Shown here piece after piece: positions 63,101-64,000 of a DNA stretch of 64,000 nucleotides; the stretch's first letter is position 1, and each line of letters starts with the position of its first letter. The stretch is taken from the NCBI RefSeq assembly GCF_900105625.1, contig NZ_FNSD01000001.1, positions 4,154,001 through 4,218,000 of the forward strand, read 5' to 3'. The translations under genes were made by a program, and so were the position numbers. Below the pieces are notes generated by a model. That model was not told the DNA's origin, did no database searches, and was given only the letters and a program-made list of their open reading frames with translations. The DNA is from Terriglobus roseus (GTDB lineage: Bacteria; Acidobacteriota; Terriglobia; Terriglobales; Acidobacteriaceae).

Positions 63101-63330
63101 AGAACACCCAGGTAAGCGAGCGTCTCAGAGTGCAGTTCCGCGCGGAAGCCTTCAACCTGCTCAACCACACCAACCTGCTCACACCGAACCCGGTCGTCTT
63201 CTCCTCCGGACCGACGCAGGGCACCGCCGCCAACCAGACCGCCGCCGTCGTCGCAAGCCCCACGGCAGGCGTCATCACCGCGGCAGCCACATCACGCCAG
63301 CTCCAATTCGGCGTCAAGGTTCTCTTCTAG
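60127..63330 (+). CDS. Oar-like TonB-dependent outer-membrane receptor
   Basis: About 1067 residues from GTG 60127 (MTHPFARRSRFLASVPIAIS), preceded by GAGAGGA; the frame is open upstream into the leaders. Signal peptide, CarboxypepD_reg domain (TLYGVITDGSGAAVPNATVI, RRLRTDAAGRYSAPSIAVG), plug-like domain with VTERQVKDLPLNGRSYDQLI and VSGRRPQDNLYLLNGVEYTG, EAVREFNVVSDTYGANYGKR, and a large beta barrel ending in the outer-membrane signature GVKVLF. Oar-like receptors are numerous in Acidobacteriota. Two Cys-rich leaders precede it and cysD follows, so uptake of a sulfur compound is a reasonable guess. Confidence 0.88.
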   Translation: MTHPFARRSRFLASVPIAISAVLSVTAACAGAQVVGSTLYGVITDGSGAAVPNATVIIHNEETGTERRLRTDAAGRYSAPSIAVGLYSVAVTADGFSAEKHTGVVLTVGQAASLDVKLHVRSDEQQVTVSDTVPTVNLSNEQVSGLVTERQVKDLPLNGRSYDQLITLNPATVNYTSQRSGSVGTSNSSVGNMFSVSGRRPQDNLYLLNGVEYTGASLINVTPGGTSGQLLGVEAVREFNVVSDTYGANYGKRQGAQISIVTASGTNALHGAAYEFIRNSALDARNYFDQAKKPNFQRNNFGAALGGPIKHDKLFLFANYEGYRQNLGLSDVTLVPNAASRAAAAPSVRPLLNLWPVANGPDLGSGIAIAYSTPVQHIREDFGTARFDANLSANDLLFGVYTVDDSTANTPTANPYSLINEALREQVASVQEQHVFSPKLLNTARAGFSRASFYFLGEVPPDVAAASGTFVAGKPIGAIVIAGSTASNGSSQITGAGANVGSNNAITRNLFTFDDHIFYTLGSHTLEAGGWLQRLQSNDNLAQNQYGQASFASLSTFLTGNIKTFTVVPNPTALAWRSWFGAGYVQDTWKALPTLEVTAGIRFESSNGFNEAKGRAGVYGFTNGIINSTPTVGSAGLATNRAKFLPEPRVGLAWNVSGDNKTAIRAGFGLHHSLLDNLDYRLDQAAPYNTTLSYSGTTVANPTSGAPGLISPSNVQPDIATPTVYSYSLHIERQLAANLSVTVGYIGSRGTHQILSSNQNEPASQSCANNCPTGVPNGTLYYPTTTRANPAVANTTSWSSGGSSNYNGLVLDVRQSLRKGLTLRGVYTFSKNLDNGSAWNTSVSANTPAFVSYPKNPSLDYGPAATDVRQLAAFNGSYDLPFGTSASSNPVFRRSVGGWSVSTIVTLQTGLPFTPQLGYNPTGSGDTRNPVRPNRNPNFTGKLYTGGSTAQRAAKYFDASAFSAPAYGTVGNLGRDTLVSPGFANWDLSLLKNTQVSERLRVQFRAEAFNLLNHTNLLTPNPVVFSSGPTQGTAANQTAAVVASPTAGVITAAATSRQLQFGVKVLF

Positions 63331-63346
63331 TCGGAAGCGAAGAAGA

Positions 63347-63385
63347 GAAAGGCCGGTGTGGGGCGACACCCGCACCGGCCAACAT
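63347..63385 (+). terminator. Hairpin after the TonB receptor gene
   Basis: GGCCGGTG (63351-63358) pairs with CACCGGCC (63373-63380), extended inside by GGG/CCC; AACATTT follows. The T tract is weak, so it may leave some read-through into cysD. Confidence 0.6.
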
Positions 63386-63411
63386 TTCCATCGACCACAA
63401 GATCGGGTGCT

Positions 63412-63476
63412 CCACACATACGCAAAGCGGATGTGTGGGTTGCTCGTGAAGCGGAGAGCAGCGGGCCAAAGCCCGC
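63412..63476 (+). promoter_or_regulatory. Two hairpins in the receptor-cysD gap
   Basis: CCACACAT (63412-63419) with ATGTGTGG (63431-63438) enclosing an inner CGC/GCG, and GCGGGC (63461-63466) with GCCCGC (63471-63476). A weaker stem CCTTCG/CGAAGG (about 63499/63548) ends before GCTTTTTG. Function unknown; they may be a second terminator or part of an upstream control region. Confidence 0.4.
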
Positions 63477-63555
63477 GCAATCCTCGCCCAGGGGAAGCCC
63501 TTCGTGCGCGGAATGAGAAATCAAGCGGCCCAAAGGCCCACGCGAAGGATGCTTT

Positions 63556-63584
63556 TTGAATCCGAAGCCCCCGTTTGCTAATCT
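63556..63584 (+). promoter_or_regulatory. Possible promoter for the cysD leader
   Basis: TTGAAT (63556-63561) and TAATCT (63579-63584) at 17-base spacing. Transcription would begin near 63591, placing the leader ATG (63597) within ~6 bases of the 5' end. Confidence 0.35.
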
Positions 63585-63596
63585 CAAAGAGCAGAC

Positions 63597-63668
63597 ATGC
63601 GCGCGCCCCTTTCCATCTGCGACTGTTGTCCGGCCGTCCTCACGGCTGTGTGTTGTTGCGCGCGCTAG
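63597..63668 (+). CDS. Cys-rich leader peptide upstream of cysD
   Basis: A 23-codon frame from ATG 63597 to TAG 63668. Six residues are cysteine: 8, 10 and 11 (ICDCCP) and 19, 20 and 21 (VCCCAR before the stop). The run of three Cys codons two codons from the stop is a classic sign of a leader that stalls when charged cysteinyl-tRNA is scarce. It sits 65 bases before cysD, the first gene of sulfate activation. AAAGAG lies 7-12 bases before the ATG. Cysteine-responsive attenuation is inferred. Confidence 0.75.
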   Translation: MRAPLSICDCCPAVLTAVCCCAR

Positions 63669-63733
63669 ACTTCCGCTCTGCCTCTCCTCCACCAAACATC
63701 TCAGCGCACGTCCCCATGCACTCATAGGAATCG

Positions 63734-64000
63734 ATGGCCACACTCACTCCATCTCTGCCGCCTGTCACCGCAGCACCACCGCGCCTCAGTCACCTGCGTC
63801 TGCTCGAAGCTGAGAGCATCCAGATCCTGCGCGAGGTCGCCGCCGAGTTTGAAAAGCCGGTCATGCTCTACAGCATCGGCAAGGACTCCTCCGTCATGCT
63901 GCGGCTGGCGCAGAAGGCCTTCTATCCCGGCCCCATTCCGTTCCCGTTGCTGCACATCGACACCGGCTACAAGTTCCGCGAGATGATCGAATTCCGCGAC
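63734..64000 (+). CDS. cysD: Sulfate adenylyltransferase subunit 2 (partial)
   Basis: Starts at ATG 63734 with AGGA upstream and runs off the window (89 codons visible). The visible part has [20 protein letters not shown], the PP-loop [20 protein letters not shown] that binds ATP, and [20 protein letters not shown], all typical of CysD. With CysN it adenylates sulfate to APS at the start of sulfate assimilation. It is preceded by a Cys-rich leader, consistent with repression by cysteine. Confidence 0.95.

Follow-up and report, generated by a model that had tools for sequence, protein, structure and literature searches.

The 23-codon open reading frame (ORF) just upstream of cysD near the end of the window, by which we mean the whole stretch of 64,000 nucleotides of Terriglobus roseus DNA analyzed here, is probably the sensor of a cysteine-responsive attenuator, which in the window's genus would combine a near-leaderless start with a Rho-dependent output. 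Judging by the comparison of related loci, it is very likely that the leader senses Cys-tRNA, and the proposal of an earlier, sequence-only reading that a cysteine-sensing leader would control sulfate activation in this lineage is supported by the conservation of Cys codons upstream of cysD.

The poly-cysteine leader and its surroundings

The sequence-only reading had described a 23-codon frame with six cysteines and a cysteine triplet before a final Ala-Arg-stop, 65 bases upstream of cysD, and this description was confirmed on re-reading: in the window translation, Cys19-20-21 are followed by Ala-Arg-stop, and 65 nt separate the leader stop from the cysD ATG at 63734. The elements of the region are as follows:

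63556 to 63561, plus strand: -35-like box TTGAAT, separated by a 17-nt spacer from the -10-like box
63579 to 63584, plus strand: -10-like box TAATCT, with TGC just before it, ending 12 nt upstream of the leader ATG
63597 to 63668, plus strand: poly-cysteine leader ORF of 23 codons, from the ATG at 63597 to the TAG ending at 63668, MRAPLSICDCCPAVLTAVCCCAR
63618 to 63629, plus strand: first Cys group, codons 8, 10 and 11 (TGC, TGT, TGT)
63631 to 63648, plus strand: predicted hairpin within the leader, between both Cys groups, CGGCCGTCCTCACGGCTG
63651 to 63659, plus strand: second Cys run, adjoining the stop, codons 19-21 (TGT TGT TGC)
63669 to 63733, plus strand: spacer rich in C (43%), poor in G (14%) and weakly folded, the proposed Rho loading segment
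63726 to 63730, plus strand: Shine-Dalgarno-like AGGAA of cysD, read from the sequence
63734 to 64000, plus strand: 5' part of cysD (sulfate adenylyltransferase subunit 2), which continues past the window end

Since the last Cys run lies directly upstream of the stop, it also lies directly upstream of the C-rich spacer. The hairpin between the two Cys groups is predicted in all seven subclade leaders that were folded (7/7), and it is a possible pause hairpin or pause site. The last 267 bases of the window are the start of cysD, for whose 89 codons TIGR02039 was the best NCBIfam match, and the complete gene (313 aa) exceeds the cut-off of that family. Downstream of cysD follow closely spaced cysN-like, cysH-like and TauE/SafE-like permease genes, named by reading rather than by family scan, while a TonB-receptor-like gene, also named by reading, ends at 63330 upstream of the leader. 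The leader peptide itself had no match in the NCBIfam scan. A riboswitch or other leader known to Rfam was considered and rejected, because the Rfam 15 covariance-model scan of 63300-64000 matched no family up to an E value of 1.

Dinucleotide shuffling of the region upstream of cysD yielded six cysteines in one ORF of 10-38 codons within 300 nt in 2 of 5000 cases, and tiles with six cysteines numbered 7 of 1274 across both strands of the window; two of these seven are the leader itself, and the other five overlap at two further places on the minus strand. It might be argued that the ORF is a chance product of a GC-rich intergenic region, as short ORFs with at least four cysteines were found in 47 of the 1274 window tiles. 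Such an origin is extremely improbable, being contradicted by the conservation of position and strand across 106 loci and also by a codon preference in the leaders that is opposite to that of genes.

Conservation of the leader among relatives

Matches to cysD were obtained in 95 of 200 genomes of the family (90 above the cut-off), 18 of 19 genomes of the window's genus (16 above the cut-off) and 103 of 297 genomes of the phylum (59 above the cut-off). The locus set (n = 144) was oriented by tblastn, identical copies and loci with less than 150 nt of upstream sequence were removed, and two family matches (G396 and G440) were left out. By rule, a leader is present in 97 of the 144 loci, comprising 91/106 in the family and 6/38 outside it. 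A short ORF with at least four cysteines in the 300 nt upstream of cysD occurs in 77 of the 106 family loci, compared with 2 of the 106 reverse complements of these loci and 110 of 2120 shuffles under the same criterion. Without six doubtful calls, 85 of the 106 family loci have the leader, and these represent 23 of 31 genera. The sequence-only reading had named Cys codons that are not kept among relatives as an outcome that would speak against it, and this outcome was not observed. A stricter rule gave 80 loci, and 21 of the 106 family loci were counted as having no leader (15 by rule and 6 set aside by eye).

Within the window's genus, the leader is present in 14 of 16 unique loci by rule and in 16/16 when two loci read by eye are included, namely L100 (three cysteines, GTG start) and L110 (two cysteines), each of which has a leader with a Cys pair. 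The leader of another locus of the genus, L098, has only four cysteines and a GTG start. As a point against the model, locus L086 (genome G101) encodes a CysD that is 92% identical to that of the window, yet no leader was seen within 800 nt upstream, which could reflect leader loss or a promoter swap.

The six leader loci outside the family (L138, L139, L141, L143, L152 and L166) all belong to f24 and f46, two other families of the phylum, where they make up 6 of 14 loci. A strict rule was applied to those of a second set of 80 cysD relatives that had enough upstream sequence, and 12 of the 34 Acidobacteriota loci passed it, as did 2 of the 44 loci outside this phylum; of the 12 Acidobacteriota matches, one (L338) is doubtful, and at least 5 genomes are shared with the family set. 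Both matches outside Acidobacteriota are from what we take to be Zetaproteobacteria. One of the two, L358 from Mariprofundus, carries a Cys-rich ORF, MPWCMVPALCNGWRCCDSALCCLYRH, located 213 to 132 nt upstream of cysD, and this may be a chance match.

Only the Cys runs are kept across relatives, and the peptide is otherwise not conserved: the leader length ranges from 13 to more than 30 residues with variable Cys spacing, and the window leader differs from that of L058 by 2 silent and 11 replacement codon differences. In a group of five leaders with the same length, individual Cys codons are variable, but codons 10-11 and 19-20 remain Cys pairs throughout. This pattern bears on the possibility that the ORF encodes a small protein with its own function, such as metal or redox binding, and is no sensor. 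Six cysteines in 23 residues might well bind a metal; however, the peptide varies outside its Cys runs, and many genera have predicted terminators that can pair with the leader, so that we consider a small protein highly unlikely.

Cysteine codon choice

The Cys codons of the family leaders are mostly TGT (369 TGT vs 142 TGC, 369/511 or 72% TGT), and TGT also accounts for 19 of 30 Cys codons in the f24/f46 leaders. The opposite preference is found in the 42 ORF-called genes of the window (23 TGT vs 137 TGC, 23/160) and in the cysD bodies of the leader loci (27 TGT vs 415 TGC, 27/442 or 6% TGT), while the flanking non-coding DNA of all leader loci contains 430 TGT and 725 TGC. Slow decoding of the rare TGT codon would presumably sharpen cysteine sensing, and rare codons are thus suggested to tune such sensors; weaker RNA structure could be another cause of the preference.

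Promoter-like boxes and the predicted near-leaderless start

With the -35-like and -10-like boxes given above, transcription is predicted to start at about 63591, leaving 5-7 nt ahead of the leader ATG, although a strict consensus promoter scan of this window region reported no promoter. Of the 91 family leaders, 64 have the motif TANNNT 6-12 nt ahead of an in-frame start, a count that falls to 8-17 when the position is shifted by 15-75 nt, and TANNNT together with a -35 match is found in 31/91 leaders, against 0-8/91 after shifting. A Shine-Dalgarno-like motif upstream of the rule-assigned start was seen in 8 of the 91 family leaders, which is a raw count without a control. These motif positions support the view that the leaders tend to be near-leaderless, and the placement of the window's start codon about 6 bases from a plausible transcription start, as put forward in the sequence-only reading, agrees with them. 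Annotators of these genomes can look here for a short gene missing from the annotation, as well as for the point where transcription of the sulfate operon probably begins.

Predicted terminators and anti-terminator pairing in relatives

Under a rule that calls a terminator where a hairpin is followed by a T run between the leader and cysD, an intrinsic terminator is predicted after the leader in 56 of the 97 leader loci, and in 19 of 31 family genera once doubtful calls are removed. Pairing between the leader and the 5' arm of the terminator was scored against shuffled leaders in 50 of these 56 loci and gave a mean z of -1.9 and a median of -1.7, with 21 of 50 below -2. The segment that pairs best mostly falls within the final 10-40 nt of the leader, on the 3' side of the main Cys cluster. 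Weak pairings also occur, in that 22 of the 50 (44%) rank no better than tenth of 100 shuffles and several have z near 0. The arrangement of the terminator-bearing relatives is, as far as predicted structures can tell, the design of classical transcription attenuation: in most other leader-carrying genera of the family, the sensor would act through a predicted intrinsic terminator, and the leader's 3' end would serve as the anti-terminator partner.

The six f24/f46 loci have GC-rich terminators and, by eye, three alternative pairings. In their alignment, likewise read by eye, a hairpin lies directly downstream of the Cys codons, and its 3' arm can pair with the 5' arm of the terminator; the pairing z is -2.2 to -4.6 in five of the six loci and -0.8 in L141. 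These leader-terminator loci are candidates for a new RNA family.

In the window, the anti-terminator pairing has no terminator arm to pair with, and no intrinsic terminator was predicted between leader and cysD in any of the 16 loci of the window's genus, the window included (0/16). It could still be supposed that the window uses an intrinsic terminator too, placed inside the leader and formed, for example, by the hairpin at 63631-63648 followed by TGTGTTGTTG. The frequency of predicted terminators among the leader loci as a whole and the recurrence of this hairpin throughout the subclade would suit such a terminator, and the terminator scanner does report the hairpin. Its tail, however, consists of alternating T and G residues, the scanner's chance expectation for sites of this kind is 0.7, and the hairpin lies upstream of the last Cys run; together with the result for the genus, this makes an in-window intrinsic terminator quite unlikely.

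Output step in the window's genus

The spacer between leader and cysD stands out in composition. Its C minus G value reaches 0.29, while none of 42 upstream controls exceeds 0.15, and values of at least 0.28 are found in 0.1% of 65-nt windows. The mean C minus G is 0.17 in terminator-less loci, 0.09 in terminator loci and 0.00 in controls (36, 50 and 42 stretches, respectively), a comparison that used 86 of the 97 leader loci and that, being one of composition, does not test Rho binding. The spacer folds at -4 kcal/mol, no better than shuffles, and a rho gene is present in the genome (721 bits).

Alternatively, the output might be translational attenuation, in which the cysD ribosome-binding site (RBS) would be hidden by an RNA fold in the absence of a stall, the stall would prevent this fold, and transcription would be unaffected. 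In favor of such control, the sensor, the predicted near-leaderless start and the missing terminator are all as in mycobacteria, and the leader end can pair ahead of cysD in L109 (z -3.4 and -2.5) and L097 (z -1.5). In L058, moreover, a stall cuts the opening cost by 1.0 kcal/mol, although a ribosome at the stop gives an equal effect. The predicted energetics argue the other way: the opening energy of the cysD RBS with a free, a stalled or a terminating ribosome differs by at most 1.7 kcal/mol over 18 loci, a maximum that comes from L092, one of the loci where the automatically picked start codon is probably wrong, and by at most 0.3 kcal/mol in the window. Neither the fold of the 143 nt (z 0.22) nor, across the 16 loci of the genus, the pairing of the leader end with downstream sequence (mean z 0.03 and 0.24) outperforms shuffled sequences. 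Translational attenuation is accordingly regarded as rather unlikely, if a serious competitor.

By elimination and composition, that is, with no terminator, no RBS sequestration and a spacer richer in C than in G, Rho-dependent (tnaC-like) termination fits best, and we lean slightly towards it as the likeliest output in the window's genus. RNA polymerase would start 5-7 nt before the leader ATG, and ribosomes would initiate at the near-leaderless 5' end. Under a shortage of Cys-tRNA, the ribosome would stall on the TGT-rich Cys runs and mask the C-rich spacer from Rho, so that transcription could enter cysD-cysN-cysH and sulfate would be activated and reduced. With ample cysteine, the ribosome would reach the stop and depart, and Rho could then load on the bare spacer and bring transcription to an early end.

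Relation to known attenuators

Leaderless polycysteine short ORFs of mycobacteria were reportedly treated by Canestrari in 2020. Such ORFs precede sulfur and cysteine genes in mycobacteria (Shell 2015, PMC4633059), and another source describes an RNA structure that hides the RBS of the next gene and is relieved by stalling at the Cys leader (PMC13236596). The mycobacterial systems and the window have in common a Cys run towards the end of a short ORF and the lack of a terminator, and the ORF of the window is predicted to start close to the transcript 5' end, where the mycobacterial ones lie. They differ in that the window belongs to another phylum, its target is cysDNH and no RBS sequestration is predicted; in many of its relatives, an intrinsic terminator is predicted in addition. 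The likeness to mycobacteria drawn in the sequence-only reading holds for the sensor, but outputs differ between lineages, with a predicted terminator in most leader genera and none in the window's genus.

Cysteine leaders without terminators were also described for cys operons of Mycobacterium and P. acnes and for cbs of B. longum (Seliverstov 2005, PMC1262725), where tna was named as the Rho-dependent parallel and tna-type Rho-dependent termination was raised and termed a rather weak prediction. These actinobacterial leaders resemble the window in having Cys runs near the stop, whereas the C-over-G spacer recurs in the window's genus and can be compared with terminator-bearing relatives. In Rhodobacterales, the uORFC-8-2 motif upstream of cysS combines a tandem-Cys short ORF with an intrinsic terminator (PMC8632094). 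It has the tandem Cys codons plus terminator seen in many relatives of the window; its target is, by contrast, cysteinyl-tRNA synthetase in alphaproteobacteria, and the window has no terminator.

Certain features are shared more widely with amino-acid leaders, as runs of end-product codons lie in a short ORF between promoter-like boxes and the matching biosynthetic operon. The attenuators of the trp/his/leu type in enterobacteria rely on leader codons and on alternative anti-terminator and terminator structures. Leader codons with a predicted anti-terminator and terminator are also found in many relatives of the window, including the f24/f46 loci with their three pairings, whereas the window's genus has no terminator and the leaders rarely have a Shine-Dalgarno-like motif. 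In E. coli, tnaC is Rho-dependent and senses free tryptophan via the nascent peptide. The likeness to tnaC is that a ribosome held at the leader end would shield a Rho site just downstream, and, as in a tnaC-like arrangement, a C-rich, G-poor, weakly folded stretch comes right after the leader stop in a genome that encodes Rho; unlike tnaC, starvation for Cys-tRNA is proposed for the window, not sensing of a free amino acid.

No report of a Cys leader in Acidobacteriota or upstream of cysD was found among the literature matches listed, in which subscription papers are little covered, in keeping with the remark of the sequence-only reading that it was not aware of any such description. Thus the phylum, the operon and the change of output appear to be new, while Cys leaders themselves are known. 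With the present loci, leader peptides that sense cysteine would be extended to one of the major soil phyla. The loci also form a comparative set with and without terminators, suited to studying how the output step of attenuation evolves. They also bear on whether Cys leaders of the mycobacterial type act on transcription, via Rho, or on translation.

Leaders upstream of other sulfur genes

Poly-Cys leaders are not confined to cysD. Of 19 sulfite reductase loci of the genus, one per genome, 7 have a poly-Cys leader of their own upstream of the gene, preceded by a -10-like box (for example MQTAKNTCCCSAACCCV); the upstream sequence is incomplete in L290, L297 and L299. These leaders are:

L281, 881 to 934, plus strand: sulfite reductase leader
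L284, 877 to 930, plus strand: sulfite reductase leader
L285, 835 to 933, plus strand: sulfite reductase leader
L288, 850 to 945, plus strand: sulfite reductase leader
L282, L283 and L295, minus strand: sulfite reductase leaders

The genome of the window and that of its nearest relative (L292 and L293) have no sulfite reductase leader, and the gene there follows a PhoU-like gene, named by reading. The sulfite reductase leaders suggest a sulfur regulon read by ribosomes. Upstream of sat, leaders were found in 2 of 30 loci (L174 and L193: MNNLLYCRCRCCSCCCLCCSTIQL; MLTFHDYCCCCCR) and in none of the other 28; the 30 loci were drawn from 57 family genomes with a sat match, and the upstream sequence is incomplete in a few. 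Taken together, a single Cys sensor, mostly built on TGT, could tentatively be proposed for several Acidobacteriota lineages, serving a sulfur regulon and coupled to intrinsic termination in most leader genera and to Rho in the window's genus, a broader scheme that we hold to be possible rather than probable.

A whole-genome search for TGTTGTTGY returned 135 sites, compared with 127 for the reversed control, and the motif alone therefore finds no further leaders. Among the 30 of these 135 sites that were scanned, the sole candidate was a GTG-started ORF, MRCCKSCELPGTAEGTRSCRARTYPHPR, behind a TATTGT box on the minus strand (L220, in the genome of the window). In L026, the leader MLSATHKADTCTKHMCMCMCCCRVWVPADSG is situated 958 to 862 nt upstream of cysD and precedes the first gene of a longer stretch; with another gene following it, this leader seems tied to the promoter and not to cysD itself. 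Moreover, the leader scan of cysK-like (30) and cysE-like (20) loci of the genus gave two matches, L278 and L280.
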